DNA from: Streptomyces sp. NRRL F-5727
GTDB lineage: Bacteria > Actinomycetota > Actinomycetes > Streptomycetales > Streptomycetaceae
Direction of reading: 5' to 3'
DNA length: 64,000 bases
Assembly (NCBI RefSeq): GCF_000719555.1
Contig: NZ_JOGX01000005.1
Location: 153,487 to 217,486 of the forward strand
The notes under the pieces were generated by a model. That model was not told where the DNA came from, ran no database searches, and worked only from the letters and a program-made list of their open reading frames with translations. Below, one piece after another: positions 32,970 to 53,985 of the stretch; within the stretch, counting starts at the first letter, position 1, and the number at the start of each line of letters is the position of its first letter. A program made the translations under genes and the position numbers.

Positions 32970-33090
32970 GCTCACGAGGCACGGGGCCGCGGTCGTCATC
33001 TGCCGAGCGGGTCGCCAAGGGTCGGCCCCGGACCAGCCGACGGCCGCCTGCGACGCGTGAAAGCCGGGGCGGGGGCCGTATCACCTGGGC

Positions 33091-33225
33091 GGAGCGACGT
33101 TCCTCACAAGCATCGTCCGGCGTGTGCCGGTGTACAGTCGAGGACGCCCTTGACCTGCACAAAGCAGGCAGGGAGCCGTCTCGGAGGAGTCCACAGTGCT
33201 GCGCACTCTGTTCAAGTCCAAGATC
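33091..33225. repeat. Left 135-bp direct repeat (attL) of the integrative element
   Basis: This segment is identical to 53455-53589 except at about four positions. It contains the native panD leader, a GGAGGAG ribosome-binding site, GTG 33196 and the first ten panD codons. The last 30 bases (33196-33225) are identical in both copies and are the likely strand-exchange core. Beyond 33225 the sequence departs from panD and enters the element. Confidence 0.88.
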
Positions 33226-33370: not shown

Positions 33371-34519
33371 ATGGTGCGACACACGGCCCGACAGCTCGCC
33401 CGCGGCATGGGGTCCTTCTTCAAGGACTGCGACTGCGCCAAGCCCACCCGCTGCCCCCACCCGTACTCGATCCGCTTCCGCGACGCGCTCGGCAAACAGC
33501 GCGAGGAATCCGGATACGACACGCAGGACGACGCGATCGAACGCCTCACGCAGCTCTACGCGGAGAAGAAGACCACGGCACCGTCCGTGGCGGCAGCCCG
33601 CCGAGAACTGGGCCAGCTGACGGTCGAGGATTACGCGAAGCAGTGGAGGCCCCGGCAGCGCAGGATGACGGACTACTCCACGGGAGAGCACGTCGACAGC
33701 TCGATCAACGTGCACATCGTCCCGCGGCTGGGAGCGCGGAAACTGAACTCGGTCACCCCGATGGTGGTCGAGCGGTTCCTGGACGAGATGGAGAGCGACG
33801 GGGTCGGCCGGGGGAACCAGGTGAACATCTTCCGGGTCCTGAAGACGATCCTTCGGGACGCGTATGCCAAGGGGGCGATCGCAGACGACCCGGTGAAGGG
33901 TGTCCAGGAGCCGGAGTACGTGCGCGAGCAGGTGGCCATCCCGTCCCTCGCCTACGTGACGAAGGCACTGGCCGTCGCCGACGAGGACTTGGCGCTGGAG
34001 ATCGTCATGATGGCGGGATGCGGCCTGCGAAACGGCGAGGCGCGGGCGGTGAACGTCCACAATGTCGTGGCGCAGGACGTGTACCGGGTACGGGAGCAGA
34101 TCCACTCGAACACGCTGAGGCCGGCGAAGCTGAAGCACCGCAAGGCGGGGGAGTTCCGGGAGGTTCCGCTACCGCGGTTGGTACGGGAGGCGATTGAGCG
34201 GTACGAGGAGAAGCACGGCACCGTGAAGGGCGGCTATCTGCTGCGTGGGCCGGGTGGCTACTTCACCGAGGGCATGGAGCGACGCCGGGTGAGGAAGCTC
34301 TTCGCAGACCTTCCGCCAGAGGAGGGCGTCGGGATGTACGGCTTCCGGCACTACTTCGCATCGAACGCACTCGGGAACGGCATCCCCATCACCGACGTCG
34401 CGGAGTGGATGGGCCACAAGTCCATCGAAGAGACGTACCGCACCTACCGGCACCTGATGCCGGGCAGCATCACCAAAGCCGCCCGGATCCTGGACGCAGG
34501 CCTCTGGGAAGCCGCCTGA
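33371..34519 (+). CDS. Tyrosine site-specific integrase of the panD island
   Basis: This 382-residue phage-type integrase has an N-terminal CxC/arm-binding segment (FFKDCDCAKPTRCPHPYSIRF), a SAM-like core-binding domain (about 85-185) and a catalytic domain. The catalytic domain carries Arg in GCGLRNGEA, FRHYFASN, MGHKS and the nucleophile Tyr in EETYRTYRHLMPG. The usual first His of the HxxR box is replaced (MYGFRHYF), a variation worth noting. It lies 145 bp inside attL and reads into the element. GTG/ATG choice is uncertain: MVRHTARQ at 33371 or MGSFFKD at 33407. Confidence 0.92.
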   Translation: MVRHTARQLARGMGSFFKDCDCAKPTRCPHPYSIRFRDALGKQREESGYDTQDDAIERLTQLYAEKKTTAPSVAAARRELGQLTVEDYAKQWRPRQRRMTDYSTGEHVDSSINVHIVPRLGARKLNSVTPMVVERFLDEMESDGVGRGNQVNIFRVLKTILRDAYAKGAIADDPVKGVQEPEYVREQVAIPSLAYVTKALAVADEDLALEIVMMAGCGLRNGEARAVNVHNVVAQDVYRVREQIHSNTLRPAKLKHRKAGEFREVPLPRLVREAIERYEEKHGTVKGGYLLRGPGGYFTEGMERRRVRKLFADLPPEEGVGMYGFRHYFASNALGNGIPITDVAEWMGHKSIEETYRTYRHLMPGSITKAARILDAGLWEAA

Positions 34520-35173: not shown

Positions 35174-35647
35174 ATGATCAACCGGCGACCGAGGCTGGTT
35201 CTCCTGTGTGGGCTGCCCGGTGCTGGAAAGACCACGGTGGCCAAGAAGCTGGAACGCGAGCTGTCCGCTGTCCGGCTTTGCCCGGACGAGTGGCTCATGT
35301 GCCTGGGCCTCGATGTCTTCGACAGTGAGGCTCGTGAGCGGGTCAAGCGATGTTTGTGGCAGCACGCCCAGGCGCTGTTGGCCTCCGGTGCCGTCGTGAT
35401 TCTGGAGAACGGTTTCTGGGAGCGGGCGGAGCGTGACGAGAAGCGGCTCATGGCCCGCTCGATGGGTACTGCCGTCGAACTGCGCTACCTCCGGGTGCCG
35501 CTCGAAGAGCTGGAAAGGCGTATCGCTCTGCGGAACCATGCACCTGGCGCGGTCGTGCTGACGGCCGAACTTCTCAGGAACTGCCAGGGGCAGTTCGAGG
35601 AGCCGACGCAGGCCGAACTCGACCTGTTTGACGCGCCCCTGCTCTAG
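35174..35647 (+). CDS. AAA_33/zeta-toxin-like P-loop kinase (IS passenger)
   Basis: This 157-residue P-loop NTPase has Walker [10 protein letters not shown] (about residues 14-22), a PDEW motif after the first strand pair and a lid-like Arg segment ([12 protein letters not shown]). It resembles small AAA_33 kinases and the kinase core of chloramphenicol phosphotransferase and zeta toxins. The substrate is unknown. GGGAGGTG precedes ATG 35174. Its stop codon shares a palindromic CTAG with the convergent transposase stop, so the two genes overlap by four bases. It lies inside the terminal inverted repeats of the IS. Confidence 0.8.
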
Positions 35648-36542: not shown

Positions 36543-36614
36543 GACCCGTGATCATTCACAGGCCAAGATCCACTTTCGATACACGGCCTAAGCTGGTCCG
36601 GCGTGGCAGCCGAG

Positions 36615-36755: not shown

Positions 36756-39700
36756 TCACCAGGCACGGCCGTCCGGAGGTAGATCATCCGTATCCCGCTG
36801 CATAAGGCGCAGGGCGGAGGCTGCGAGGTCGCGATAGAACTGCTCCTCGACGCTACCCCCAGCAGAGCTGTCGGCCAGCTCCGTGGCCTTCGCGTGCTGC
36901 TCGACATCCTCGGGGTAGGGCTGTCCAGGCGTTCCGGAACGCATTCCGGTGATGGCGGCTGCGTGCAAGGCGCCTCTCACTCTCTCCAGGCTGGCGTCTC
37001 CGTGTCGGTCCGCAGCCCGCAGACAGCGGCGTACGAAGTCAATGTCCCAGACAATCGTCCTGTCAGCCTTAGACAGTATGTCCGCAGCGATCGTGACCTT
37101 CACCAGGTCACCGTCGTGGAAGTACTCCTCGATTACCTCGGTGACCTGGGCGTCGTAAGGCCCGGCGACAAGCTCAAAGAGGTCAGCTCCCAGGCAGCGT
37201 CGGTACGTTGAGTCCGGATCGGCTGCGATCCAGTCGCGGACCTGTCGCAGTAGGGCCGGGAAGTCGTCGTGCCCGCGAAACGGCGGTGTGTCATTCCACT
37301 GAAAGGGCAGGGGGGAGTAGCCCCGGCCCTGGCATGGCGAGGAATCGATTCTGGCTTCGAGTAGTTCGATGACGGTGAGAGGCTCAGTGTTGACGAGCTC
37401 TGCAAGGAAGCGACCGACTTCGTGGCTGTCGATGGACGATGCCGTGGCGAGCGCTGTGAGAAAGGCCTTCTGCTGGTCCTGAGAGAGATCGGACCAGGAC
37501 AGCGCGCTGAACGGAGGGCCCGAGATGGCCATAGCGAACGCGTCGAGGTCCGCTGTCTCGACTACGGGTGAAGCGGTGAGCAGTTCGATGGCCAGGTCCT
37601 TGTGCTGCGTAGCGATGAGGTGCACGGCGCCAACGGTCGCCCTGCGCACAACTGTGTCTTCGTGGGCGGCGAGTGCCCGGAGCAGCTCACCCTCGCCACC
37701 CAGCAGTTCGTCGCGACCACGCTGGACACCAAAGGCCAGTGCCACCGACCGTGTTAGTCCCGTGTTCTTTGAGCCCATGAGTGTGCGGCCCCAGTGGACC
37801 GCGCGGTCGCCGGCGGCGCGCCCCATCGCAGCCAGAGCAACTTCCACAAGCGATGCCGGCACATGATCGGGCGCAGCCATGGCCTGCTCACAGATAGCTT
37901 CACCGACGGCCGGACGATTGATGACGAGTATCCAGATGAACCGTCGGGACTTGCCCGTGTCCGGACCGAATACCACTTCGTTCTCGCTCAGCAAGACATT
38001 GACACGAGTGGCGATCTGATCGTCTGTCCAGTCGGACAGTGTGGCCATCACATCTTGGAACAGCGAGTCTTGCGCCGCGTGCCAGTCTGATCGGTTTGGA
38101 TGGACAGTTGGGTCGGCCGGTCCGCCATGCAACGCCCGCGCGAGCTCGTTGTCCGGTGAGGTAGGGATCGAGCTCAGGAGGTCCTGGGCATGCTGGCGCA
38201 GATCGTCGGGCCCATATCTCGCGAGCCAATGGACCTCTGTGCGCACGGTGACCAGAATTGATGGTGGCAGGGTGCGCTGGAGGATGAACTGATGTAGACG
38301 TTCGATGGTGCTGCCGAGGTGTGGGAACCACGGCTGACGCATCGCGTCGGTGACCGACAGGTTGAAGGTGCCATGTGGCAGGCGGAAGGCCTTGCCGATC
38401 AGGGAGCTGGCTGCCGAGGCGCGTACGAGCTGCGGGTGCCCCAATTCTTCGAACGCCAGGTCGAGCACGAGGCCGCGCAGGTTCAGGACCCCGCTGGTTG
38501 GGGCCAGTACGTAGGGACGGAAGGTCAGAGACCAGGTAGCTGGTGTCCACAATTCGTCATAACCCTCGGTCTCCAGCAGAGGGCTCAGCACGCTCAACGG
38601 CTGATGAATAGTGGCGGTATCGGGTGAGCGGGCGAGCCACCGTTCGACCTGGCTGACGAGGGCATGTTGGTACTTGGTGGGGCCCCAGCGGGTATAGCCG
38701 GCCAGTTTCTCCAGAATGCGCAAAGGATGCGAGGGGTACTGGTTGAGGGGACGCTGGTCGTCGCATCCTAGGCGCCAAAGAAGCGTGGCTGCTTGTGGCA
38801 GGGACTCCAGCGAGCGCGCGGCGGCTTGGAGGACGTCGGCGAGGGCGTGATGTACGGCTGTGTTGGTCCAGGTGTGCATCATCCCGAAGCCGACGTCCCC
38901 GGTGACGGAGTCGCTAGGATTCTCCACCGCCCAATTAGCCAGGTCGATAGTCCGCTGGGGCTGATAGAAGGCAACCTCCTTCACCATCTCCAGCAAGCTC
39001 ACTCGACCGCGTGCGTCTGCAGAATGGAACGCCGCAGTGATGCCCTGCCACAGCGGTTCGATCAGCACGCCGGCGCCGGCGCCCTGTCCTTGTTGCCAGT
39101 CCACGCGACCGGTGTTCACCACTAGGTTGGCCAAGGCGCTGCCCTCAGCGGCTTCCATGGCTTTGGCGAGGTAGCCTGTGGGCAGCCCTGTGCTGCGATG
39201 GAGGGCTGCCTTGACTAGCAAGGCGTCCCCCAACAGGTCGGGGACCAGACGTATGGTGGTGCCATGCCGGAGGATCACCCCCGCCTCTTCTAATGCCTCC
39301 AAGTGCGGAGCTGAGACGTCGTACGGCAACCCGGTCAGCGCCTCCAGCGAACCTTGGACTTCTGGTTCCGCGAGGCGGACCGGCTGGAACGCGGCGAGAG
39401 CGGACAGCAGCTCTCGTGGCACCTGTCCGGCTGACGGAGCGGTCGTCAGCGCTTCGGCGAGCCGGTCGGTAAGTTCTCGGTGGAGTTGTTCGTCGCCTTC
39501 GAACCTTCGGGGATCCAGCTCTCCATTGTTGATCAGCGCCGCGCCCGTGACGATCAACAGTGGACAATCCCGTGCCGATGTAGCAAGTCGGGGCGCGTGG
39601 AGTCGTACCTCTTCTTTCAGGATCTCGCCAGCTAGGGAGACGGCGTCTTCGAACTCCAGGTCACCGATCTCAACCTGAGTGGTGTCGCTCATGTGGGTCC

Positions 39701-40523
39701 CTGCACAGGACAGAGCCCGCCGGGCGTGGGCTAGGCCGTAAGGGCGGAGACACAGCAGCACATTGGCCGATGGGTTGGCGCTCCGAACGCCGGAGACGAT
39801 CTTCTCCAAGGGGAGGGTGTCGTTGTGCGCGTCGTCGATGACGACCAGCAGACTGCCTTCGTTCGGCAGGTCCCCGAACATCCCGGAGCTGATGTCGGAG
39901 TTGGCACCGAGCACCCGTACTTCGACGGCGGGCTCAGCTTCGCTCAGCGTCTGGCACAGAGCCGTCACGATCTTGGTCTTCCCGACCCCGCCCCGGCCAA
40001 CGAGAAGCGCGATGGCTCCGTGCGCACTCCTGGCAAACGGCACGAGGCGGTCCATCGTCTCCGTGCGTCCGACGAGCCGCCAGCGGTGGCTGTACACCGA
40101 GCCTTTGTTCGCCTCGCGGAGGTAGTCGTCGGGTTTCATCCACGGGCTTGGCCCCGCGTTCCCATTCTGCTGGAGCACGACCTGGGTGCCGACCACATCG
40201 CCTAGAAAGACAGAACCGCGGAAGTCGATGTGATCCCCTTGATACCAGGCCCCCACACTGCCCGGAGTATGCCGCTGCATGGCCTCCGCCACGGTTCGCG
40301 CGATGCCGAGGTCGGTGGAAAGCAGGTCCACCACACGTCCGACCCAGGCCCGGGTTTCCTCCCGCCGTGCGGGGTGTGCTGCTGCCTCAACCAGCGCACT
40401 TGGGTTGGCGTTCTGATCCTGTGTCAGCGCCCGTGCCAGTTCGTCGACCAGTTGACGTCCGGCTTCCCCGGCGGCCCCTTCGGACAGAGCCGCCAGCAAT
40501 GCCGGCGGCAACGTCTCGTTCAT
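36756..40523 (-). CDS. STAND-like NTPase receptor with GDHIDFRGS motif
   Basis: This 1255-residue protein has a helical N-terminus (about 1-90), the short strand-forming motif GDHIDFRGSVFLGDVVG at about residues 96-112, a P-loop NTPase core (Walker A LLVGRGGVGKTK about 173-184; Walker B LLVVIDDAH about 225-233) and roughly 800 residues of helical repeat-like sequence. This is the architecture of STAND sensors: effector-coupling motif, NTPase switch, then a superstructure that detects a ligand. No membrane segment or enzymatic domain was seen. It follows the membrane-protein gene by 59 bases on the same strand. The neighbouring nucleosidase carries the same motif, so the two probably work together. 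Confidence 0.82.
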   Translation of the reverse strand: MNETLPPALLAALSEGAAGEAGRQLVDELARALTQDQNANPSALVEAAAHPARREETRAWVGRVVDLLSTDLGIARTVAEAMQRHTPGSVGAWYQGDHIDFRGSVFLGDVVGTQVVLQQNGNAGPSPWMKPDDYLREANKGSVYSHRWRLVGRTETMDRLVPFARSAHGAIALLVGRGGVGKTKIVTALCQTLSEAEPAVEVRVLGANSDISSGMFGDLPNEGSLLVVIDDAHNDTLPLEKIVSGVRSANPSANVLLCLRPYGLAHARRALSCAGTHMSDTTQVEIGDLEFEDAVSLAGEILKEEVRLHAPRLATSARDCPLLIVTGAALINNGELDPRRFEGDEQLHRELTDRLAEALTTAPSAGQVPRELLSALAAFQPVRLAEPEVQGSLEALTGLPYDVSAPHLEALEEAGVILRHGTTIRLVPDLLGDALLVKAALHRSTGLPTGYLAKAMEAAEGSALANLVVNTGRVDWQQGQGAGAGVLIEPLWQGITAAFHSADARGRVSLLEMVKEVAFYQPQRTIDLANWAVENPSDSVTGDVGFGMMHTWTNTAVHHALADVLQAAARSLESLPQAATLLWRLGCDDQRPLNQYPSHPLRILEKLAGYTRWGPTKYQHALVSQVERWLARSPDTATIHQPLSVLSPLLETEGYDELWTPATWSLTFRPYVLAPTSGVLNLRGLVLDLAFEELGHPQLVRASAASSLIGKAFRLPHGTFNLSVTDAMRQPWFPHLGSTIERLHQFILQRTLPPSILVTVRTEVHWLARYGPDDLRQHAQDLLSSIPTSPDNELARALHGGPADPTVHPNRSDWHAAQDSLFQDVMATLSDWTDDQIATRVNVLLSENEVVFGPDTGKSRRFIWILVINRPAVGEAICEQAMAAPDHVPASLVEVALAAMGRAAGDRAVHWGRTLMGSKNTGLTRSVALAFGVQRGRDELLGGEGELLRALAAHEDTVVRRATVGAVHLIATQHKDLAIELLTASPVVETADLDAFAMAISGPPFSALSWSDLSQDQQKAFLTALATASSIDSHEVGRFLAELVNTEPLTVIELLEARIDSSPCQGRGYSPLPFQWNDTPPFRGHDDFPALLRQVRDWIAADPDSTYRRCLGADLFELVAGPYDAQVTEVIEEYFHDGDLVKVTIAADILSKADRTIVWDIDFVRRCLRAADRHGDASLERVRGALHAAAITGMRSGTPGQPYPEDVEQHAKATELADSSAGGSVEEQFYRDLAASALRLMQRDTDDLPPDGRAW

Positions 40524-40582: not shown

Positions 40583-41140
40583 TCACATCGCGCGGCGTGA
40601 TGCCTTGGCGTACAACACGATCTGAATGCCGAGGCCTATCACCGCCACTGCCTCAAGCGCTGATAGGGCGATGAGCAGAACGCCGCTCGGCTGGTCGGTC
40701 CAGAACACGAGCAGCCCTGCCAGCGGCAGCACACAGAACGCTGTCAGGTCCACCAGGCACTGGAACGCCTTCCGGGAACGACGGCGCGCATCGCCTCGAT
40801 GGGCTTCCTCCCATCCGAAGGCGGCAAATTCACCGTTGGACCCCGATAGTTGCGTCAGACGAGGGCCCAGCTCCTTGCGTACGTAGCGTCCGATCGCCGA
40901 GATCTTTTCGTCGTTGACCAGGTACGTCCATCCCAGAACGATGCAGACAGGCGGCAGTGCAAGCAGCATGGACGTCTGCTTGGCCTGTGCCACCGCCGCA
41001 ATGATCGCGGCGGACACGGCGAGCGTCACGTAGAGCAGGTTGTCGCGAAACCCGATACGCGTCTTCTGTTCGTCCTTGACGCTCTGGTACTCAACTAGCA
41101 GCAGCTGCCCAACACTGATGCCCCCTGCCGGTTCCGACAC
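40583..41140 (-). CDS. Four-helix membrane protein coupled to STAND/nucleosidase genes
   Basis: This 185-residue protein has two hydrophobic hairpins (NLLYVTLAVSAAIIAAVAQ with the next helix, then two more near the C-terminus). A conserved-looking cytosolic segment (VNDEKISAIGRYVRKELGP) lies between them. GTG 41140 is preferred because AGGAGGGG lies about 7 bases upstream; GTG 41167 is also in frame. It is probably co-transcribed with the STAND gene. I recall similar proteins next to nucleosidase-like genes in other Streptomyces, but no named family is claimed. Confidence 0.75.
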   Translation of the reverse strand: MSEPAGGISVGQLLLVEYQSVKDEQKTRIGFRDNLLYVTLAVSAAIIAAVAQAKQTSMLLALPPVCIVLGWTYLVNDEKISAIGRYVRKELGPRLTQLSGSNGEFAAFGWEEAHRGDARRRSRKAFQCLVDLTAFCVLPLAGLLVFWTDQPSGVLLIALSALEAVAVIGLGIQIVLYAKASRRAM

Positions 41141-41201
41141 AGCCCCACCCCTCCTGCCCAACGCCACGTGTCTGGCACTGATGCGGCAATATCATAGGTC
41201 C

Positions 41202-42074
41202 ATGCTTGATACCCAGCCCACAGCCGTGATCCTCACCGCGCTTCCTGTGGAGTACGAGGCCGTTCGAGAACATTTGAGGGACGCCAAGGAGCTCGTACAC
41301 GGCGACGGGACCCGGGTCGAGCAGGGCCGATTCGAGGGAGCGCCCTGGAGCGTGGCGATCGCTGAGCTGGGCGTGGGAGCCCTCAACGCCGCCGCGCTCA
41401 CCACACAGGTTGTCGGCTGGCTTCGCCCGCAGGTGCTCCTGTTCATCGGGGTCGCGGGCGGCCTCAAAGATGACGTTGCGATCGGTGACGTTGTGGTCGG
41501 GACGAAGGTGTACGCCGTTCACGGTGGCAAGCAGACCCCACAAGGATTCCTCGCCCGGCCCGAAGCGTGGAATGGTTCGCACCGGTTGCTGCAAACGGCC
41601 CGTGCGGCGCTGCGGGATCTGGAGGGCGTCCGCTGCCATTTCAAGCCGATCGCATGTGGTGATGTTGTCCTAGCTGACGACAAGTCCGAGTTCGCCGAGT
41701 ACATCCGAGTGAACTACAACGATGCTTACGCCATCGAGATGGAAGGGTCCGGCGCCGCCCACGCTGCCCATCTCAACGGCCAGGACTCCCTCGTCATCCG
41801 GGGGATCAGTGACCGAGCCAACTCTGACAAGCACGAGGCGGACGCTTCGGGATCCCAGCAGCGGGCCGCTGACCAGGCGGCCGCGGTGGCGATGGCCATC
41901 CTGCGCCGACAGCAGCCCCGCGGAAGCAGTTCCAACCCTGAGGGGGGACCATCTAGAGGCCGTGCTACCGAAGCCACCTACGGTGGTGACCATATTGACT
42001 TCCGAGGCAGCACATTCCTCGGGCCTGTCACGGGTAAGGCGACGGGGCAGCGCTCCGGCGAGGAGCAGGGCTAG
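41202..42074 (+). CDS. MTA/SAH nucleosidase-like (PNP/UDP phosphorylase family) protein with GDHIDFRGS tail
   Basis: This 290-residue protein has a purine-nucleoside-phosphorylase/MTAN fold (VILTALPVEYEAV, FIGVAGGLKDDVAIGDVVVG). The substrate-binding Glu is in YAIEMEGSG and the catalytic Asp in RGISDRAN. It may cleave nucleosides such as MTA, SAH or other nucleotides' glycosidic bonds. A C-terminal extension (about residues 262-290) repeats the motif GDHIDFRGSTFLGPVTG of the divergent STAND protein. ATG 41202 begins the family homology; -10-like TATCAT lies 6 bases upstream, suggesting a leaderless message. Confidence 0.87.
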   Translation: MLDTQPTAVILTALPVEYEAVREHLRDAKELVHGDGTRVEQGRFEGAPWSVAIAELGVGALNAAALTTQVVGWLRPQVLLFIGVAGGLKDDVAIGDVVVGTKVYAVHGGKQTPQGFLARPEAWNGSHRLLQTARAALRDLEGVRCHFKPIACGDVVLADDKSEFAEYIRVNYNDAYAIEMEGSGAAHAAHLNGQDSLVIRGISDRANSDKHEADASGSQQRAADQAAAVAMAILRRQQPRGSSSNPEGGPSRGRATEATYGGDHIDFRGSTFLGPVTGKATGQRSGEEQG

Positions 42075-42810
42075 GGCGTTTCTCTCGGATCATCTTGCCG
42101 ACCAGATGAAGATGGCGGCGATGTGGGGTCCGGCGATGTAGATGGTGGCGGTCTTGTCGTAGCGGGTGGGGAGGCCGCGCCACTGCTTGAGCTTGTTGAT
42201 GCACCGCTCGACGGTGTTGCGCTGTTTGTAGGCGTCGCGGTCGAAGGCCGGTGGGCGGCCGCCCCGGCTGCCGCGGCGTTTGCAGTTCGCGGCCTGGTCG
42301 GAGGGCTGTGGGATCACCGCCAGAATCCCGGCCCGACGCAGAGGGGTTCGGATTGCGCGGGACGAGTAGGCCTTGTCGGCCAGGACCACATCCGGGGTGG
42401 TCCTGGGTCGGCGGATCGGCCGCGGCACCCGTAAACGGACCATGACCTCGGGAAACGCGGGCGCGTCACCGGCCTGTCCTGGGGTTCGGACGAACGCCAG
42501 TGGCCGGCATAGGCTGTGCGCGGCGAGGTGGAACCTGGTGGTCAGTCCACCGAGGGATCGGCCGAGGGCATGGTCGTCCGGCTAGCCGGTAGGGGCCCCT
42601 TTTGAAGGGCCCCGGCGGCGTGCTGATGAGCCCGGACGATCGTGGAGTCGACCGAGACGATCCAGTTGAGGTCGCCTTCGGCGTCGGCCTGGGCGAGCAA
42701 GGCGGTGAACACGTGTCCTCTTGCAGTGCGGCAGGTTTCTCCAGACACCGGTGACTCGTATGCCTGGCGGGGAGCGGGCACCCTCAGGGGGACGCTGCGG
42801 TACGTGCCAA
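42075..42810 (-). pseudogene. Degraded IS5-family transposase
   Basis: Two leftward frames contain pieces of one IS5-type transposase. The upstream piece (about 42542-42800) has [19 protein letters not shown]; the downstream piece (42090-42443) has VVLADKAYSS and NTVERCINKLKQWRG. The 5' end is missing and the frames are shifted between them, so it is inactive. Its left end GGGCGTTTCTCTCGG begins just after the nucleosidase stop; its lost right end abuts the zinc-ribbon gene. Confidence 0.7.
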
Positions 42811-43986
42811 TCAGTCGGTGTGGTCTTTGGAACATGTCCCGCACCTGGTTCGGCCTCGCCTGATGCCAGTCAAGGTCACCGTGACTTTGGTCCCGCACGC
42901 ACAGCGGCAGCGCCACCGGTCGGTGGTTTTGCCAGGGTAGGTCTCCAGGGGATCGAACCCGGCCTGGCGGACCTCGGCAGCAGCCTTTGCCGGATCAGTT
43001 CGGCCGCCGGTCCGAGGGCACTTCTTACATCCCGTCGTTCCTGACCGGACGAAGGACAGACGCGTCATGACCTCGTTCCCGCAGGAGCAGCGGCAGTGCC
43101 ATGGGTCCGTGGTCCGGCCGGGATAGGGTTCCAACGGTTCGAAACCAGCCGCGTGCATCTCGGTCTCGGCTTGCTCGGCGTTCGATGACTTGGAGGAGCA
43201 GAAGCGGCAGCGGGTTCCTCCGTTGCGGACGTTGGAGTAGGTGGGGGTGCTCTCGCGACCGCAGGCGGTGCAGCGGCGGCGCCAAGGAGTCTGACTGGTG
43301 GAGTAGGGCTCCAGCGGTTCGAACCCTGCCGCCCGCATCACCCCCTCCGCCTTGGGGGCGGTCGCCGCCGTGGCGCGCTTGGCCTGCGCCGCTCTGGTGC
43401 GGCAGATGCGGCAGCCCTGGCCTCCGTTGCGTACGGCGTTGAAGGTGGGCCGGCCCTCGTGCCCGCACGTGGTGCACCGTGAGGGCCAGGTCGCGTTCGT
43501 ACGGCCCGGGTAGGGCACGAGCGGCTCGTACCCGCGGGCGCGCATCTCCTCGGCAGCAGCTTCCGCGTCGAACAGGAAGGCGGCCCGAGGCCGGGCGCCG
43601 GCCCGGGGAGCGTAGTCGTCCGGTGCGCGGCGGGTCTCCTCCTCGACCATGGCCCACACCTCATCCGCGGTGACGCGGTCGGTGGAGCAGGTCTCGCTCC
43701 AACCGTTCGGCATGACGTCCTTGGTGAGGAACGGACACAACTTGGCGCCGCGCAGACGGTCCAACACGCCCTGCTCGACGTCGTAGGCGGCGCCGGTCGT
43801 GAAGTCACTGGCTCGGTACAGCTCCCACCCCTGGAGCTCATGCTGCAGGAGCCGGGAGGTGTAGCCGGTGCAGGCGCCGATGCCGACCTTGACCGCGTTC
43901 CACTCCCGGTGGGTGATGACGTAGAGCAGCGGGCTGCTGCCCGCCGTACCGATCCGGCCGAGGCCACCGCGCTGATGCGGGCGCAC
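42811..43986 (-). CDS. GIY-YIG/T5orf172-like N-terminus with four zinc-ribbon repeats
   Basis: The 391-residue reading frame begins with a LLYVITHREWNAVKVGIG segment plus YDVEQGVLDRLR, resembling GIY-YIG/T5orf172 nuclease-like domains. It continues with four repeats of about 55-60 residues built on AAGFEPLEPYPGRT...W.CRC..CG followed by a second CxxC. The repeats are probable zinc-binding DNA/RNA-recognition ribbons. The first ~18 residues come from an inverted junction and are unlikely native, so the true start is lost or lies near 43935. The 3' end runs into an IS fragment. Function unknown; a defence-related nuclease is possible. Confidence 0.55.
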   Translation of the reverse strand: MRPHQRGGLGRIGTAGSSPLLYVITHREWNAVKVGIGACTGYTSRLLQHELQGWELYRASDFTTGAAYDVEQGVLDRLRGAKLCPFLTKDVMPNGWSETCSTDRVTADEVWAMVEEETRRAPDDYAPRAGARPRAAFLFDAEAAAEEMRARGYEPLVPYPGRTNATWPSRCTTCGHEGRPTFNAVRNGGQGCRICRTRAAQAKRATAATAPKAEGVMRAAGFEPLEPYSTSQTPWRRRCTACGRESTPTYSNVRNGGTRCRFCSSKSSNAEQAETEMHAAGFEPLEPYPGRTTDPWHCRCSCGNEVMTRLSFVRSGTTGCKKCPRTGGRTDPAKAAAEVRQAGFDPLETYPGKTTDRWRCRCACGTKVTVTLTGIRRGRTRCGTCSKDHTD

Positions 43987-45097: not shown

Positions 45098-45240
45098 ATG
45101 ACAGACACCGGTGAGCAGTATGAGGCGTCGGCTTCGGCGCTCGGGTACCTCTTCCAGTTCGTCAAGGCTCTGCATATCTGCTGCGCTACCGCCATCCCGC
45201 TGCCCGGTTACTGCCAGTGGAGGGTGTGAAGCCGCGGCGG
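45098..45240 (+). pseudogene. Truncated start of a dsDNA-nuclease-like defence gene
   Basis: ATG 45098 reads MTDTGEQYEASASALGYLFQ, the typical beginning of dsDNA-nuclease-domain (Cap4/ABC-3C-like) proteins. One frame to the side, LLRYRHPAARLLPVEGVK continues the same family pattern. A frameshift and early stops end it about 45 codons in. The rest was apparently replaced by the pPIWI-RE island. Confidence 0.4.
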
Positions 45241-45331
45241 CGATCGTGACCGGAGATATGCGGTTTGCGGCGGCCTTGCTCACTCAGGCGCTCGGGAGCT
45301 GTCGCGAGCGCCGTCATGAGATCCGTGCTGA

Positions 45332-47977
45332 TTACAGGATGTACTCCTCCATCAATCCGGCTAGGTGGGCGATGGCTGGCCAGGTGGTGGCGATCGTCGT
45401 GTGGGCGTGAAGACGTCGTTGGGCCTGGGTGTACATGGCCCAGTCGGCGGGGTTGTCTCCGGCTTGGAGGAACGCGGGGACGATCTCCAGGGAAGTCGGG
45501 TTGGAGCAGGTCTTGGTTCGGTTGCCCGGTTCGGCCGGGTCGAGCTTGGTGACGCCGAGCGCGGTCTGGTTCTGGGCCGAGCGGGGGTTGATACCCCAAA
45601 ACGCGCGTTCCCCGATCTGGACGACCCCGGAGAACCGCCCGTACTTCGTCACGGGAATCAGCTCTTCCGATTCTTCGCCGGCCCTGACCATTTCCTCGGT
45701 GACTCCGAAGGACCGGGGGACCGCGTCGCGGTCGCTTCGTTCCCGGAGCCGGATGATGCGCAGGCCGGGCTGGTCGCCGGGCTTTCGGATCGCCGGAGTC
45801 ACAGCGGGGTCGGTCATGTCGACACCTGGCAGGACTAGCTGGTCGAAGGCGATCCGGCCGTCCTGCAGCCATGGCCAGATCTCCCGATCGCTCATCCGTG
45901 CGCGGCGTACGAGCAGGAGCCGGTCGGCGGTGGAGTCGAGGGCCAGGGCGCCGGTGATGAACTCGGCGAGGGCCGCGCGCGAGGTGCGGGTGGCTAGGCG
46001 TCCGCGGCCGGCGGTCAGCGCCTCGGGAAGTGTGGTCAGCGGCATGGGGTGCTCACTTGGGCTGCCGGGTGTGGGCATGAGCTGTGCGGTGGGCCCTTCG
46101 TGCGTGTGCTGCCGGATGAGGATGGGCACGATCATCCGTTCGCCCGCGGGGGCGAGCCAGACCGTGGTCAGTTCGAAGGGGCCGCTGATGCCCTGGGGTA
46201 CGGCGATCTTGGGCAGGTGGCCAGCCTGGCGGAGGGCGTCGTTGAGGGCGGCGGCAGCGCGTTCGATGTCGGCCGTGGCGAAGTCGGTGTCGGCGAAGCG
46301 TTTGGCGAGGGCGGCTTTGCTGGGGTTGGGGTTGGCAGGGGTGATAGGGCGAAGGCACTGAACGTTTCGGCGAAGAGCCGGAAGGGTCTTCTTGAAGAGC
46401 TTCTTTGGATCGCGTTGGCGCGTGCGCGAGAAGTAGGCGGGCCCTTCCATCTCCACGATACAGGCGATGGGTGCGGCGAGGCGGGGGAAGGATTCGACGA
46501 TCCTCCCGGCGCGCTCGGCCTCACTCCTTTCGTACTCGGCTCGGCGTGCGGCCTTGTCGGGGTTGGTGGAGCGGGGCAGGCCGGCGGTCAGGTCCTGCGG
46601 GTTGCAGCGGTTGAGCGTGAGGTTGAGCGGCCCGGTGAAGCCGGCCGAAGTCGCTGTGGACCGGAAGGGGGTCAGGCCGAGCTTTGCGGCGGCAGCGACC
46701 TGCAGGCCCTGCCAGGTCCGGTCGGAGGACGCCCATACCTCGATCTCGTAGGTAGGGGCGTTGGGCAGCTCCAGGGGCAGGAGCGACTTGGCGCGGGTCC
46801 GGGCCTTGGGCGTGGGCGCGAGCGGAGCCAGACCCTTCTCCGCCAGCTGGCGGGCGACCTGGGCGAGGACCTCCATGTGGTCGCGGGGCTGATAGCCGTG
46901 GCCGACGGGGTGATCGTGGACCGAGCGCGCCGGCGGTGTGCCGTCCTTTTCGGGGAAGCGGTAGGTCATGCCGGTGCTGTGGACGAGGTGGGCGGCGAAG
47001 GGCTGGGCTGCCGCGTCGCCGGGGGCGGTGCGCAGTTGGTCGAGGCTGGGTGGCTGGTGGTGGGTGAGGTGGGCGAGGATCTCGGCGACGCCCGGCTCCC
47101 AGGTCCAGGTGCTGCTCTCTCCGCGCCGGCGGATGGTGACTCCGCTCTGTAGGAGCATGGGTCGCTCGCGGCGGTGGACGAATCCTTGCTTGGCGGAGAG
47201 GAGCACCTTGGCGGTCGGGTCGCTGAATCCGCGGCGGGGGATGTACTCGACTGGGCGCGTCGCGAGGCGGGTCATGTTCAGGTCGACGTGGAGGTGGACT
47301 TCGGGGACACCGGGCACTGTCTCGAGGTGGAAGGTCAGGACGTCCACGCTGGCTCCGGCCGAGCCGTCTTCGTCGGTGAGGGTCTCGGGTGCGCCGAGGT
47401 GCAGGGCACGGCGGCCGTCTGCTCGGGTGGGTCCGAGTCGCAGGTCGCGGTGGTGTCCCAGGAGATGGAGCCCGCTGCTGGTGAGGTGTTCGGCGACGAG
47501 GCTGGGCAGGAGGTTGAAGACGTGGTTCGGGGGGTTGGCGGTGCCGTTGGCATGAAGGTCGTGGCGGGTGAGGTCGAGGTCTTCGGGGATCCACTCCAGT
47601 TGGCCGGCGCCTTCGAGTTGGCTGTACCAGTCGGTGTCGGGCATGTGGGGTGCCACACGGGCCGAGGCCCATGCCGACAGAGCGATCAGCAGGAGGTCCG
47701 GGTCGACCTCGGTCCGGGACCGGAGCCATGCGGGATCGCGGGGATTCGTCTGTACGGAGGTGATTTCGGGGTCGATGAGGGTGAGCAGGTCCCTCAGAGA
47801 GCGCGTGGGCAGGTAGTCGGGCCCGCTGCGGGGACGACGGCCGGGCCGGGTATCCCACGCCTTCTCCAGGAGGTCGAGCATTCCCGGCGGGCAGGTCGTG
47901 CGGTAGCCGGTGACGGGCCAGGTGGCTTCCGGCGTGAAGGTGAGCACGGTGGCTTGGGTGCTGCGGTAGGCGGGCAT
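45332..47977 (-). CDS. pPIWI-RE protein (PIWI/RNase H-like module of the pPIWI-RE island)
   Basis: This 881-residue protein matches the pPIWI_RE layout. A DUF3962-like N-terminal module (about 1-350) is followed by a middle region (about 350-560). The C-terminal RNase H-like PIWI domain (about 560-881) carries the blocks LLLVRRARMSDREIWPWLQDG, GLRIIRLRERSD and FWGINPRSAQNQT, and ends HLAGLMEEYIL, much like known members (HLA..EEY). These proteins are predicted nucleic-acid-guided defence factors distantly related to Argonautes. ATG 47977 overlaps the helicase stop (TGATG), the third gene of a coupled operon. The family call is from remembered signatures. Confidence 0.8.
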   Translation of the reverse strand: MPAYRSTQATVLTFTPEATWPVTGYRTTCPPGMLDLLEKAWDTRPGRRPRSGPDYLPTRSLRDLLTLIDPEITSVQTNPRDPAWLRSRTEVDPDLLLIALSAWASARVAPHMPDTDWYSQLEGAGQLEWIPEDLDLTRHDLHANGTANPPNHVFNLLPSLVAEHLTSSGLHLLGHHRDLRLGPTRADGRRALHLGAPETLTDEDGSAGASVDVLTFHLETVPGVPEVHLHVDLNMTRLATRPVEYIPRRGFSDPTAKVLLSAKQGFVHRRERPMLLQSGVTIRRRGESSTWTWEPGVAEILAHLTHHQPPSLDQLRTAPGDAAAQPFAAHLVHSTGMTYRFPEKDGTPPARSVHDHPVGHGYQPRDHMEVLAQVARQLAEKGLAPLAPTPKARTRAKSLLPLELPNAPTYEIEVWASSDRTWQGLQVAAAAKLGLTPFRSTATSAGFTGPLNLTLNRCNPQDLTAGLPRSTNPDKAARRAEYERSEAERAGRIVESFPRLAAPIACIVEMEGPAYFSRTRQRDPKKLFKKTLPALRRNVQCLRPITPANPNPSKAALAKRFADTDFATADIERAAAALNDALRQAGHLPKIAVPQGISGPFELTTVWLAPAGERMIVPILIRQHTHEGPTAQLMPTPGSPSEHPMPLTTLPEALTAGRGRLATRTSRAALAEFITGALALDSTADRLLLVRRARMSDREIWPWLQDGRIAFDQLVLPGVDMTDPAVTPAIRKPGDQPGLRIIRLRERSDRDAVPRSFGVTEEMVRAGEESEELIPVTKYGRFSGVVQIGERAFWGINPRSAQNQTALGVTKLDPAEPGNRTKTCSNPTSLEIVPAFLQAGDNPADWAMYTQAQRRLHAHTTIATTWPAIAHLAGLMEEYIL

Positions 47978-50900
47978 CAGCGGTGACCCCAGTCGATGTT
48001 GTCGAGAAGATGGGAAGCCAGGCCCCAACAGGCCTTCGCGAGTTCGTGGTCGAGCCGCTCGGCGACTGTGGCCGCGGGACCCGGGTCGGAGAGCCAGCCG
48101 TGCAGGAGCTGCTGCGCGGCGACGATCACGCTGGTACGGGGGGTGTCCGGGGCGGAGTCGTCGAGGTTTGCGGTACGGGGGGCGAAGGCCGCGTCGCAGA
48201 GGTAGACCAGCACAGGCTCGTTGCCGCGGATGCCACGGCCGAGGGTCTGGTGGAGGGGAACGAGGAAGTTGCCGACGAACGCGGCGTGCTCGACCGGGTC
48301 GGTGAGCCGCGTGAACAGGACGGGCTCGCCTACCCGTCGCTGCCAACGGCGACGCTCGCTGCCGCGGAGCTTGCGCGCGAGGTCGACTGGATCGACGTGG
48401 TCAAGAGTGACGTCGACAGGATTTCGAAGACGGCGCATCGCCTCACGGCTGAGGAGCGAGAGCGGGAAGGTGGCGTCGTCGGCGGGCGGGTGGATCCGAG
48501 CCAGGTAGAACACGGCGCCGAGGGCCGCGACGCGGCGGGCGTTGAGGATGTTGTGGCCGCGTTGAACGGCGCCTTCGGCTGCCACGAGGATGTCGGCACC
48601 GGAGGCGGCGAAGGTGGCAAGGCGCCGCCGGGGGATGCTGTGGCGGGTGGGCGGATCGTCGTCGCGGATGACATGGAGGGCCGTGTACGGGGTCTTCTGG
48701 TTGATGTAATCGGCGACGGTTTGAGCGTCCCGGGTGCTCTGCACGGTGAACAGGACCTGCTGGCGGTCATCGGCAAGACGCTGACGGGCCTGCTGGAGCA
48801 GCGACTCCCGCGCACCGGGGGCGGGATTGCAGATCCAGTCAGCGGACGTACACAGGGCGTGCGCGTGGAGGGTGGGGTCACCTCCGGTGCCCGAGGTGAA
48901 GACCGGGCGGCCGTCGCGGTAGCGCGGCGGCCGGAAGAGCATCTTGCTTTCCAGCAGAGCCGCCCTGGCCTTCTCAGGTTCGCGCAGGACCAGGTTCGGA
49001 GTGACGTCGAGGTGGAAGCGGGGGGAGGCGGGCATCCAGCTGGTGGCGGAGGCGAGGACGACGTTGGGCCCCTGGATTCCTTCGGCCTCCAGGAGGTCAT
49101 GGAGGTGATACAGCAGCCACCGGCCCACACCGCGCAGCCACAGGATGCTGAAGGACCCGCTGTCGCCAGCGGGGTTGGGCTGCCACTGGAGAGCCATCAG
49201 GTTGCCCGCGGCCTGCTCTGGGACGAAGGACATCAGGTCGCGGGGCGGCTGGCGGCTCCAGAAGTCGTCGCCGTCTCCGATCTGTGCCGGGCTGATGGCT
49301 GGCAGGCGCTGGGCGACCTCGAAGAACGATGTCGTGATGCGCGCGGCCCACAAGCCGCCCTGCAACAGCTGCGCGAGCTCCGCCGGCGTGCCCCGGGCCG
49401 TAATGCCGTCGAGTACCGGTTGATGGGCCTCGATCCACGCCTCGGCGGCCTCCTGCGCCGACATGAGCGTGTCGTGGGACGCTGTCATTGCCTCGATCAG
49501 CGCCGCCCAGTTCTCTGCGGGCGCCTGGAAGGGGGCGGTGACCAGCGGCTCGAAGTGCTCTTCGAAGTACCGGTCGGCGGCTTCCTCCAGTTCCGCCTTG
49601 CGGGCGAAGTCGTTCCGCTCGCCGAGGCCGTGGAGGCTTCGGGCCAGGCGCCGCAGGAGGCTGTACCCGGTGAACGGTCCCTCGGTGATGAGGGCGCTCA
49701 GGTGGTCGGCACCCGGGTCGATCATCAGCCGGTGGAGCTCCGTCAACGCCTGGTCGTGGCGGCGGAAGTGCTTGTCGCCCGCCGTCACCTCGGGGTCCCG
49801 GAGGTCAAGGAACCACGAGTGCTCCAAGCGCTGTCCGATCCGGTCCCCCACGCGATGGCTCCAGCCCCTGCCAGGTTGGGAGAGAATCTCGTGCAGCAAG
49901 AACCGGTCGTCGAACTGCTGCTGGACGGTGTCGGCCTCGTCCATCAGGAGAACGGTCAGGTGATGCTGGGCCGCTTCGGCGACGCGAACCTCGATCTGGG
50001 ACTGCGGCATCATCGTGGAAGCCAGGCCGGCCGCAGTGGTCACCCACACCTGGGCGTCGGCCACATTGCGAGTCGCTGCGTGGGCAGGGCATCGCGAAAG
50101 GATCGGGCAGTCCCGGCGCCCGCGCTGGCCGTCCACGGAGAGCTTGCCTCTGCACGGCCGCTCCTCCCTCGGGAGCGGAACCCGGTCGCTCCTGCTGGTC
50201 AGGCGCAGCTCCTCCACGTAGCACTGGTCGTCGGCGAACGCCGCCGCGGCGTCGGCACCGGTGGGGAAGGTGGTAGCGCCGTCGTGCAGGAGCGAGCGCC
50301 AATAGCGGTCCTTGTGGACTCCCTCCCGGGTCCGACCGAAGATGGGGACGGCGTTGATGCCGAGTGCCTGCAGGAAACTGACCTTGGTGTACATGTCGCT
50401 ACCGGAGGCGAGCACGAGACCCACCTTGCCGCTGCGCTGGGCAACGATGTAGGCGATCATGTCCAGCAACGTGGATTTTCCGCTGTTCATCAGGCCCACC
50501 ACGTGCCACAGACCGTCGATGACCATCTCCTGTGGCCGCTCCAGGAGGCGCCCTCCCACATGGTCGGCCAGCAGGGCCTCCATCTGCTCCAGCCGCTTGA
50601 CGAAGTTCCGGTTCTCGATCTCCGGGTGAGCGATCAGGAGCTCGTCCATCTCGGCGGCAGCCCGCTGGAAATCCTCGATGGTGAGAGGAATCGGCTCCCG
50701 TGTTCGGAGGGTCGTCGCCAGCAGCTCGGGCGGGGCCGGCGCGGGGACGAAAGTCTCGGGGATACGGACCTTTTCCCAGCTGCCGTCAGTTCGCTCGAAA
50801 GAGCACGTCGAACCAGGCGGCGCCGGCCGATAGCCGCTCCCCGCCTTGTAAGGGGCGACTTTCTGAAGCCTCTGCCGGTAGACGTCATGGCGTGCCGCAG

Positions 50901-51285
50901 CGTACGGGGAGCGGCGCCGGGTGAACACCGTCGACAGTTCAGCCTTGTGCCCCGCCATGTCACCTGGCTCGAACCCCCGTACCTGGGCAGGGAGCTTCAC
51001 GTAGTGATCGAGCTTCTCCCGCATCGTCCCGGTCTTGGCAACCGGGCCCATCAGTTCACGCAGGGTCCGGATCTGCGGGTCGAGCGCCGAGTCCAGCCGC
51101 ATGTATCCAGCGAGCACGGGCCACAGAGCGCCGATGCCCCGCCCCGGCATGTGATCGACCAGGAACGACAGCCCCAGCTCGAGGGCACACAGTTCCCATG
51201 GCTTGAGCTGGCCGAGCATCGGCCGCACGCACTCGTCGTCCAGCTCCTTCACCAGCGAGGTGCTCCAGGAGCGGGTGTCCCTCAT
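47977..51285 (-). CDS. pPIWI-RE island helicase (DinG/XPD-like SF2 with Fe-S cysteines)
   Basis: This 1102-residue protein has a long N-terminal region (about 1-250) and then an SF2 helicase core with Walker A GLMNSGKST (about 264-272) and DEAD box LLMDEAD (about 446-452). Four cysteines (about 355, 378, 393, 399) lie between motifs Ia and II as in XPD/DinG 4Fe-4S helicases. The second RecA lobe ends with motif VI QTLGRGIRG. It should unwind or translocate on nucleic acid using ATP. It overlaps the nuclease gene stop (4 bases) and the PIWI gene start, so all three are translationally coupled. Confidence 0.85.
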   Translation of the reverse strand: MRDTRSWSTSLVKELDDECVRPMLGQLKPWELCALELGLSFLVDHMPGRGIGALWPVLAGYMRLDSALDPQIRTLRELMGPVAKTGTMREKLDHYVKLPAQVRGFEPGDMAGHKAELSTVFTRRRSPYAAARHDVYRQRLQKVAPYKAGSGYRPAPPGSTCSFERTDGSWEKVRIPETFVPAPAPPELLATTLRTREPIPLTIEDFQRAAAEMDELLIAHPEIENRNFVKRLEQMEALLADHVGGRLLERPQEMVIDGLWHVVGLMNSGKSTLLDMIAYIVAQRSGKVGLVLASGSDMYTKVSFLQALGINAVPIFGRTREGVHKDRYWRSLLHDGATTFPTGADAAAAFADDQCYVEELRLTSRSDRVPLPREERPCRGKLSVDGQRGRRDCPILSRCPAHAATRNVADAQVWVTTAAGLASTMMPQSQIEVRVAEAAQHHLTVLLMDEADTVQQQFDDRFLLHEILSQPGRGWSHRVGDRIGQRLEHSWFLDLRDPEVTAGDKHFRRHDQALTELHRLMIDPGADHLSALITEGPFTGYSLLRRLARSLHGLGERNDFARKAELEEAADRYFEEHFEPLVTAPFQAPAENWAALIEAMTASHDTLMSAQEAAEAWIEAHQPVLDGITARGTPAELAQLLQGGLWAARITTSFFEVAQRLPAISPAQIGDGDDFWSRQPPRDLMSFVPEQAAGNLMALQWQPNPAGDSGSFSILWLRGVGRWLLYHLHDLLEAEGIQGPNVVLASATSWMPASPRFHLDVTPNLVLREPEKARAALLESKMLFRPPRYRDGRPVFTSGTGGDPTLHAHALCTSADWICNPAPGARESLLQQARQRLADDRQQVLFTVQSTRDAQTVADYINQKTPYTALHVIRDDDPPTRHSIPRRRLATFAASGADILVAAEGAVQRGHNILNARRVAALGAVFYLARIHPPADDATFPLSLLSREAMRRLRNPVDVTLDHVDPVDLARKLRGSERRRWQRRVGEPVLFTRLTDPVEHAAFVGNFLVPLHQTLGRGIRGNEPVLVYLCDAAFAPRTANLDDSAPDTPRTSVIVAAQQLLHGWLSDPGPAATVAERLDHELAKACWGLASHLLDNIDWGHR

Positions 51286-52580
51286 CGGGCACCTCCCGCC
51301 CTGCTTGCGCGGACGGCGGCTTGCCGCAAGAACGCCTTCTCATCAAGGACCTCGACTCCGGCGGCCCGGCCTTGCAGCTCGCGCTCCAGATCCGCGAGGT
51401 AGCCAGGTGTCTGGAGGCGGTGCGTGGGGACGACGATGATGCGCCGACGCGCCGGCACGCGGGGATCGCTGCGGAACCCCCGGGCGAGGAGAGTGGGGCT
51501 CGCGCAGTCCTTCGCGTCGATCGCCCAGCATTCCCGTTCCCCGCCGGCGTCCACCGGTTCGAAGATCAACGCCGCGTCCCAGGCATCCAGACACGGCCAC
51601 GGCTCAGTCCGAACCCGATCCGACGGCAGTTCGGCGAGCCGGTCCAGCAGCCGCCCTTCGAGTAGTCCAGGGTCGTGGAAGAACTGGCGGGTCGCCCTGT
51701 GCTGGGTCCAGTACCCGGCCAGACAGGCCACCTCGAACCGCTCGGGCCTCCCGCCGCACCCCGGAGTCCCGCAGCCGCTCGCCCCGTCGTCGACCGGGTT
51801 GTGACACTCCCGACAGCGACCCAGCCGGACCTTCCCCGGACTCTCGACCGGATGGAGGACGTACGCGGTACGCACGAACTTCGCGAGGTACGAGTCGCTG
51901 TCGGCGTCCGCCTTCGGCAACTCTCGGGCCAACGCCTGGATGTCGCGGTCGCTGAGCACGGGACGATCGATCAGCAAGCGCCGCAGTCGGCAGTAGATAC
52001 GCTGGACAGCCTCCTCGCCATCACCATTCATCCGAGCGCACGACATCAGTGCCGCGAAGGCCTGGTTTTGAACCAACTCCGCCTCGACGTCGGCGTGACG
52101 GACCAGATCGGCTGCCTGCTCGGCGAACTCCGACAGCTCATCCCCGTCCAGCAGGATGGCTTCTAGATCACCGTCGGCGAGGGAGAGCGGAACGGGCCAG
52201 GACCCCAGCGGGCGACGGCACCACTCGAACAGCTCGAGGTCGTTGCCCGGCCAGTCCGACCCCAGCGCCTGCGCCTTCCACCACAACCGCCCCCGTGCGT
52301 CACGCCAGGCGCGCGGCAACGGACCATACACTTCAGCAGCCCTGAAGTGCCCGCCATCCGCCGACTGCCGATCGAGCCGGATTCTCGCCAAGGCGGCACA
52401 CAACAACTCCACCGTCATGTAGTCGTCTGCTGCACCCTGGGGATCCCGGTCCCTGCCGGGCGCGGCATCCCGTGACTCCGCTACCGCATTCGCTGGTGGA
52501 CAGCCGTCCGGCGACTCCGATCCGACGGACTGAGGGTGTGCACGGTCAGCGGGCCTGGCGGCTTCCTGAGTAATGCTCAT
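51282..52580 (-). CDS. pPIWI-RE island REase-like nuclease with zinc ribbon
   Basis: This 432-residue protein has a low-complexity N-terminus (about 1-50), a helical region and a four-Cys zinc ribbon CRECHNPVDDGASGCGTPGC (about 256-275). A C-terminal restriction-endonuclease-like core follows, where LDAWDAALIF (Asp335) and WAIDAKD (Asp355, Lys357) form the D...(D/E)xK site. It is predicted to cut DNA as the effector of the island. It is the first gene of the operon. No Shine-Dalgarno precedes ATG 52580; TATATC 8 bases upstream suggests a leaderless transcript. ATG 52418 (MTVELLC) is an alternative start. Confidence 0.8.
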   Translation of the reverse strand: MSITQEAARPADRAHPQSVGSESPDGCPPANAVAESRDAAPGRDRDPQGAADDYMTVELLCAALARIRLDRQSADGGHFRAAEVYGPLPRAWRDARGRLWWKAQALGSDWPGNDLELFEWCRRPLGSWPVPLSLADGDLEAILLDGDELSEFAEQAADLVRHADVEAELVQNQAFAALMSCARMNGDGEEAVQRIYCRLRRLLIDRPVLSDRDIQALARELPKADADSDSYLAKFVRTAYVLHPVESPGKVRLGRCRECHNPVDDGASGCGTPGCGGRPERFEVACLAGYWTQHRATRQFFHDPGLLEGRLLDRLAELPSDRVRTEPWPCLDAWDAALIFEPVDAGGERECWAIDAKDCASPTLLARGFRSDPRVPARRRIIVVPTHRLQTPGYLADLERELQGRAAGVEVLDEKAFLRQAAVRASRAGGAR

Positions 52581-52776
52581 AGCTGATCGATATACACCAC
52601 GTCACCGACAATGCACTATCCGTTACGAATGAATGTTCTTGTTTGAAACTGTCATTCGATATTGGGGGGTCGCAGGCTGGCGTCGCCCTTGCAGTACCGG
52701 ACGGGACGTCCGAGGACCTGCACCTCGCCCTCGCGGCGGAGTCCGTGGGGCAGCAGGTCGACATCGCACTCGGGCC

Positions 52777-53378: not shown

Positions 53379-53454
53379 GCGCGTTCCGTGGCGATCGTCC
53401 CAACAGGCGTTGGTGCTAAGGGAAACACCAGGCAGGAAGCCGTCTAGCCCGACG

Positions 53455-53589
53455 GGAGCGATGTTCCTCACAAGCATCGTCCGGCGTGTGCCGGTGTACA
53501 GTCGAGGACGCCCTTGACCTGCAGAAAGCAGGCAGGGAGCCGTCTCGGAGGAGTCCCAAGTGCTGCGCACTCTGTTCAAGTCCAAGATC
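53455..53589. repeat. Right 135-bp direct repeat (attR), element-supplied panD leader
   Basis: It matches 33091-33225 with about four substitutions, two of them just before the start codon (GTCCCAAGTG here, GTCCACAGTG at left). It contains the leader, GGAGGAG ribosome site and first ten codons from which panD is now expressed. Confidence 0.88.
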
Positions 53590-53985
53590 CACCGTGCCAC
53601 CGTCACCCAGGCCGACCTGCACTACGTCGGTTCCGTGACCGTGGACGCCGACCTGCTCGACGCCGCCGACCTGCTGCCCGGTGAGCTGGTGCACATCGTC
53701 GACATCACCAACGGTGCCCGGCTGGAGACCTACGTCATCGAGGGGGAGCGGGGTTCCGGGGTCGTCGGGATCAACGGGGCCGCGGCTCACCTGGTGCATC
53801 CCGGGGACCTGGTGATCCTCATCAGTTACGCGCAGATGGACGACGCCGAGGCACGGGCGTACGTGCCCCGTGTCGTGCACGTCGACGGGGCGAACCGCAT
53901 TGTGGAGCTGGGTGCCGACGCCTCGGCGCCCGTGCCCGGCAGTGACACCGTGCGTCCGCCGCACGCGGTGCCGGCCCGGGTCTGA
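53560..53985 (+). CDS. panD: Aspartate 1-decarboxylase
   Basis: This 141-residue pyruvoyl-dependent enzyme makes beta-alanine from [10 protein letters not shown] for pantothenate and CoA synthesis. The self-processing site GSVTVDADL (Gly-Ser cleaved to pyruvoyl) and the conserved [19 protein letters not shown] are present. The length matches the family plus a short C-terminal tail. GTG 53560 has GGAGGAG upstream. It is the integration target of the adjacent island: its first ten codons and leader are inside the right direct repeat, so the element restores a full-length gene under a nearly native leader. Confidence 0.97.

Follow-up and report, generated by a model that had tools for sequence, protein, structure and literature searches.

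The pPIWI-RE three-gene system was predicted in 2013 by Burroughs, Iyer and Aravind, who proposed hybrid-directed restriction as its function and described the catalytic residues as surviving in only a subset of the family (PMC3702460). Among the papers listed by a literature search, PsPIWI-RE of Pseudomonas stutzeri DSM4166 was the sole assayed member, and its gene is described as adjoining and overlapping dinG, as does the PIWI gene reported here (PMC10991935). Related parts occur in the published descriptions of two antiplasmid systems, DdmDE of Vibrio cholerae and ApsAB of Escherichia coli, which unite an Argonaute-like protein, a helicase and a PD-(D/E)XK-type nuclease (PMC11096173, PMC12904381). 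Here, we analyzed 64,000 nucleotides (nt) of Streptomyces sp. NRRL F-5727 (contig NZ_JOGX01000005.1, positions 153,487 to 217,486 of the forward strand; hereafter the window), which hold a complete operon of the known pPIWI-RE family whose PIWI protein is predicted to have lost its own cutting site and whose separate nuclease is probably the cutter. The operon consists of three genes with overlapping ends:

51282..52580, minus strand: Y + REase protein, 432 residues (Pfam pPIWI_RE_Y and pPIWI_RE_REase; PADLOC PprRE; structure model with a predicted local distance difference test score, pLDDT, of 85.5)
47977..51285, minus strand: DinG-type iron-sulfur (Fe-S) superfamily 2 helicase with pPIWI_RE_Z, 1102 residues (Pfam; PADLOC PprDinG, 2.7e-109)
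45332..47977, minus strand: PIWI-RE protein with pPIWI_RE_X, MID_pPIWI_RE and RNaseH_pPIWI_RE, 881 residues (Pfam; PADLOC PprPIWI, 2e-84)

A sequence-only reading of the window had called this a complete pPIWI-RE island of coupled, overlapping leftward genes and had proposed profile searches and structure prediction as checks. The profile searches of Pfam and PADLOC found the X, MID, RNaseH, Y, Z and REase families, giving strong support for all three proteins, and every Pfam pPIWI_RE match exceeded its curated cut-off. All three reading frames are open, and the genes meet at ATGA (REase to helicase) and TGATG (helicase to PIWI). NCBIfam assigned no family to the REase or PIWI protein and returned only weak ABC-ATPase matches for the helicase, while sequence searches of the PDB gave only chance-level matches, with one weak unrelated match for the PIWI alignment. 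The same reading had dated the family prediction to 2013, in agreement with PMC3702460, and had called the system little characterised, which is right apart from the 2022 assays of a single member, PsPIWI-RE (PMC10991935).

In order to read individual residues across the family, a set of 161 loci was assembled from the window, 80 stretches from the genomes searched (79 places in other genomes of the genus and a second triad of the same genome, all from REase matches) and 80 loci from named genomes of Actinobacteria, Cyanobacteria and Chloroflexi (kept from 254 found with a helicase query). Eight loci occur in both sets, leaving 153 distinct. The helicase is present in 161 loci and the REase and PIWI-RE proteins in 160 each, the two misses (L136 for the REase, L155 for the PIWI) being cut by contig ends, and the gene order is the same wherever all three genes are present. 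Loci with broken or cut frames (L058, L136, L155, L163, L165 and L175) were left out of the PIWI counts, and L058, L110, L111 and L136 out of the helicase tree.

The structure model of the PIWI protein (pLDDT 88.0, predicted template modelling score 0.89) has an Argonaute fold by both Foldseek and VIA. In this model the two predicted slicer positions, on strands 1 and 4 of the RNase H domain, hold W607 and R691 rather than acids, a placement derived from the model and from spacing. No acid occurs at column 607 in any of 147 distinct triads, and the window's own clade, 13 loci of which 10 are distinct, carries W, R and A at 607, 691 and 693 throughout. The window keeps R743 and E831, which occur in 134 and 137 of the 147 distinct triads and which we read as the published conserved R and E of the pPIWI-RE RNase H domain. 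The residues expected to anchor a guide 5' end in the MID domain are nearly invariant, with D523 in 147, K525 in 144 and Q540 in 146 of 147 distinct triads. The RNase H site is thus predicted from the model to be dead, and of the earlier claim that all three parts look intact, the helicase and REase motifs stand and the PIWI site does not.

It is very unlikely that the protein instead slices under RNA or DNA guidance through an altered active site, with the helicase and REase only assisting. PsPIWI-RE is described as keeping its catalytic D525 and D610 and as cutting (PMC10991935), acids are present elsewhere in the domain, and column H624 holds D in three relatives. W607 and R691 of the window, however, stand at the columns matched to D525 and D610 (PsPIWI-RE residues taken from the description), and the family-wide absence of an acid at 607 and the clade-wide W/R/A state argue against an active slicer. 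Column H624 was considered as the first catalytic acid (D in L127, L134 and L148; both acids in 3 of 155 rows) and set aside in favor of W607, as the model puts residues 615-624 in the second strand. PsPIWI-RE itself was not recovered in plasmid searches with the L134, L127 and Azospirillum proteins and P0061, nor in one protein search.

The motifs of the other two proteins are preserved, and the residues cited for them in the sequence-only reading (REase D335, D355 and K357; helicase Walker A at 264-272, cysteines and DEAD box) are all correct. The first-gene protein combines a helical Y domain with a zinc ribbon (C256/C259/C270/C275) and the PD-(D/E)XK residues E308/D335/D355/K357. Among 152 distinct REases, E308, C256, C259 and C270 are invariant, 112 have C and 37 have H at position 275, and D335 and D355 are each retained in 139 and K357 in 140. 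Its structure model gives weak support for a PD-(D/E)XK fold and overlaps the nuclease end of DdmD. Neither the Fe-S cysteines C355/C378/C393/C399 of the helicase nor its Walker G-K, D-E-x-D and motif VI residues change in any of 80 distinct helicases (L058 excluded). Loss of these cysteines or of the REase lysine, or a lack of profile support for the PIWI-like fold, had been named beforehand as refuting the assignment; the cysteines and the lysine are retained, the profile support is strong, and none of these outcomes occurred. The REase is probably the cutter of the system, as in DdmDE and ApsAB.

Taken together, the gene order and coupling, the intact helicase and REase motifs, the Argonaute-fold model, the missing slicer residues and the transfer of the operon as a cassette of about 7.4 kb (below) favor, with a probability of roughly 0.55, a reading in which the window triad works like a split DdmDE/ApsAB machine made of a non-cutting guided PIWI-RE, a DinG-type helicase and a separate REase. 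In the first step, PIWI-RE carrying a short guide in its MID pocket would pair with invading DNA, most likely forming an RNA:DNA hybrid; with neither predicted catalytic acid in its RNase H site, it would leave the target uncut. It would then recruit the DinG-type Fe-S helicase, which would open the target, and the zinc-ribbon PD-(D/E)XK protein would cut the opened DNA. PsPIWI-RE speaks against extending a pure sensor role to every member of the family: it is reported to cut and to overlap dinG, and its knockout to be sensitive to ciprofloxacin (PMC10991935).

The origin of the guide is where a second explanation departs from this one, most other parts being shared. In hybrid-directed restriction without a dedicated guide, PIWI-RE would sense R-loops on invaders that are being actively transcribed or replicated, DinG would act on them and the REase would cut. 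The 2013 proposal, as published, rested on the DinG partner and the gene order (PMC3702460), PsPIWI-RE is described as active on RNA/DNA hybrid pairings only, and the window showed no repeat array or similar guide source between 32.9 and 54.0 kb (repeat search only; Rfam not searched), where the repeats of at least 25 nt are one att-like pair and one 25-nt pair. Against this stand the near-invariant guide-anchoring residues of the MID domain and the Argonaute-like shape of the whole model, and we regard a guide-free mechanism as rather unlikely, if a serious contender.

The limits of the operon as a transferable unit were read from blastn of window positions 32001-55500 against the 12 other loci of its clade, and two features follow from the comparison:

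45183..52672, no strand: portable cassette, the stretch common to the nearest relatives, whose flanks differ
52581..52672, minus strand: upstream leader, shared with the nearest relatives, with similarity ending at 52672 (L106/L076) or 52640 (L072/L103/L083)

The genome represented by L106/L076 shares with the window only 45183-52672, at 95.0% identity, L072 and L103/L083 share 45294-52640 at 92.9-93.2%, and the other seven clade loci match between 45.3 and 52.6 kb at about 76-81%. The cassette, roughly 7.4 kb long, therefore moves without its neighbor genes, which suggests that the cassette alone suffices. The leader is probably the promoter region. Another reading takes the loss of the PIWI active site as the onset of degeneration of the operon on an old island, as the transposase remnants and debris adjoining it at about 42.1-45.3 kb might imply. 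With three open frames, an 881-residue PIWI homologue that is 98% identical and represents 25 member sequences, a W607/R691 state common to the whole clade, and intact helicase and REase motifs, such decay is hardly plausible.

Relatives of the operon show a further nuclease. In 75 of 161 loci (72 of 153 distinct) the REase gene has an extra gene immediately upstream, on the same strand in every case, and the products of the extra gene match PDDEXK_1 in Pfam (3 of 3 scanned) and PprPDDEXK in PADLOC (4 of 4); the idea that this fourth gene was novel was dropped once PADLOC named it. All 75 PprPDDEXK sequences have D403, E416, Q436, C297, C509, C512 and C518, and 74 have K418. Of 147 distinct triads, 13 carry a broken REase motif; the extra gene accompanies 12 of these, compared to 58 of the 134 whose motif is intact, and in the remaining one, L159, the REase is split over two frames. 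The Fisher value of 3e-4 for this association overstates the evidence, because 11 of the 12 loci form one clade (12 tips with a duplicate, support 1.0). The members of this lineage are L100 (= L172), L101, L102, L141, L143, L151, L153, L169, L176, L179 and L181.

This broken-REase lineage has lost the PIWI slicer site as well as the REase motif, and 11 of 11 loci have PprPDDEXK. A divergently transcribed protein kinase gene lies upstream in 11 of 11, with matches in 19 of 142 other loci, and a profile built from two members of about 1000 residues matches a protein encoded upstream in 11 of 11, compared to matches in 4 of 142 others, the counts elsewhere being lower bounds since all three profiles were built from this clade and upstream flanks differ (shorter in L023-L102). 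The latter protein has BTAD, NB-ARC and TPR matches in L143. None of the 13 loci of the window and its clade has PprPDDEXK, the kinase or the NB-ARC/TPR-type gene. Tentatively, the PIWI protein of most pPIWI-RE operons may be a non-cutting, guide-reading sensor for which an exchangeable PD-(D/E)XK nuclease cuts; one lineage may have passed this job to PprPDDEXK and gained apparent control genes (kinase, NB-ARC/TPR), with the operon of the window representing this split, DdmDE-like arrangement at its smallest, with three genes.

The genome also contains a second complete triad of a divergent type (locus L042, positions 4639-12417 of contig G000:C23), which falls on the opposite side of the helicase tree from the window. 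Standalone and three-gene pPIWI-RE forms are described as mutually exclusive in the 2013 account (PMC3702460); the co-occurrence of two triads in one genome is distinct from that exclusivity and is not rare here, as REase matches were found in 89 of 392 sampled genomes of the genus, 11 of which have two or three. The PIWI family occurs in 6 of 396 genomes of a phylum-wide sample. No match was found in 50,697 phage records, and a plasmid search with the window protein returned a single partial Nostoc match. A pPIWI-RE triad on a 728 kb plasmid of Azospirillum oryzae (L183, 4162-11460) lies beside a convergent DEAD/DEAH helicase gene and a gene for a DNA methyltransferase. One contig (G166:C1) has equal-score REase matches near both ends (17560-17874, plus strand; 9106481-9106795, minus strand), the pattern expected of a linear chromosome with terminal inverted repeats.

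The sequence-only reading placed the operon on a mobile island, and flanking direct repeats with a tyrosine integrase bear this out. The island spans about 20.4 kb at the 5' end of panD, between repeats that hold the panD start:

33064..33225, plus strand: left att-like direct repeat with a copy of the panD start, 162 nt, 90% identical to 53428-53589 (about 97% over the inner 135 nt)
33371..34519, plus strand: tyrosine integrase just inside the left repeat (Pfam PF00589 Phage_integrase, 1.9e-13)
53428..53589, plus strand: right att-like direct repeat, 162 nt, reaching into panD
53560..53985, plus strand: host gene panD, aspartate decarboxylase (Pfam Asp_decarbox, 2.8e-50)

The 5' end of panD is a recurrent integration site in the genus: 4 of 10 fetched loci (L187, L188, L189 and L190) have a second copy of the panD start at a distance of about 4.7 to 18 kb from the gene, the ten having been chosen partly because earlier matches hinted at repeat pairs. 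A narrow literature search brought up no report of panD as an integration site in Streptomyces. The cargo of three other panD islands is mixed (Asn synthase, ABC transporter, AbiEii-like and astacin among ten proteins scanned), which rules out panD as a site for defense islands only.

Within the window's island, a DDE transposase gene (35644-36555, minus strand) is followed by a STAND-type NTPase gene (36756-40523, minus strand; nSTAND_NTPase5 at 28.6 bits, below the cut-off of 34) and, divergent from it, a PNP_UDP_1 phosphorylase gene (41040-42074, plus strand). The two proteins have in common the motif GDHIDFRGSxFLGxVxG, at residue 96 of 1255 in the former and residue 316 of 344 in the latter, and by analogy the pair looks like a receptor and effector of bacterial amyloid signalling (BASS-type), a comparison that draws in part on PMC12261475 and otherwise on general background. 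Beyond them lie a probable second transposase remnant read from its translation (42090-42443, minus strand), a 391-residue frame with several CxxC-type repeats and no Pfam match above cut-off (42811-43986, minus strand), and gene debris at about 44.0-45.2 kb beside the operon.

We infer a role for the operon in defense against phages or plasmids. That the three proteins instead form a host replication or repair system that processes replication intermediates would fit the ciprofloxacin sensitivity of the P. stutzeri knockout, for which the authors suggested a replication role (PMC10991935). Such a system is difficult to reconcile with the patchy presence in the genus and phylum, with an integrase-bearing island beside a STAND NTPase gene and with cassette-wise transfer to other sites, and we consider it improbable.

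Compared to the 2013 definition of pPIWI-RE, the operon shows no difference: it has all of the domains, the R and E residues, the strict gene order and the overlapping ends set out there (PMC3702460), and its particulars are the predicted-dead RNase H site and the second triad in the genome. What is added beyond the known family is the inference of a dead slicer, the limits of the cassette and the replacement of the nuclease in relatives. The four-gene pPIWI-RE variant has the same three core genes, and its extra PprPDDEXK is without counterpart in the window or its clade. Set against the general background on short and inactive long prokaryotic Argonautes, the likeness lies in a guide-binding fold whose PIWI site is dead and whose effector is separate, whereas pPIWI-RE has its own X domain, the R/E residues and a helicase partner. 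The locus is a compact test case: the cassette measures about 7.4 kb, and the Streptomyces-type genome that carries it has a divergent second triad as well. The split-machine reading makes a sharp prediction, namely that the REase is essential and that PIWI acts without slicing. DdmDE and ApsAB are described as carrying helicase and nuclease in one chain (PMC11096173, PMC12904381), whereas the window has them in two genes, with a helicase of the Fe-S DinG type; by analogy, the window system would work like these two without being a member of either. If this holds true, pPIWI-RE would stand with DdmDE and ApsAB as another case in which an Argonaute-like protein that does not cut is teamed with a helicase and a nuclease.

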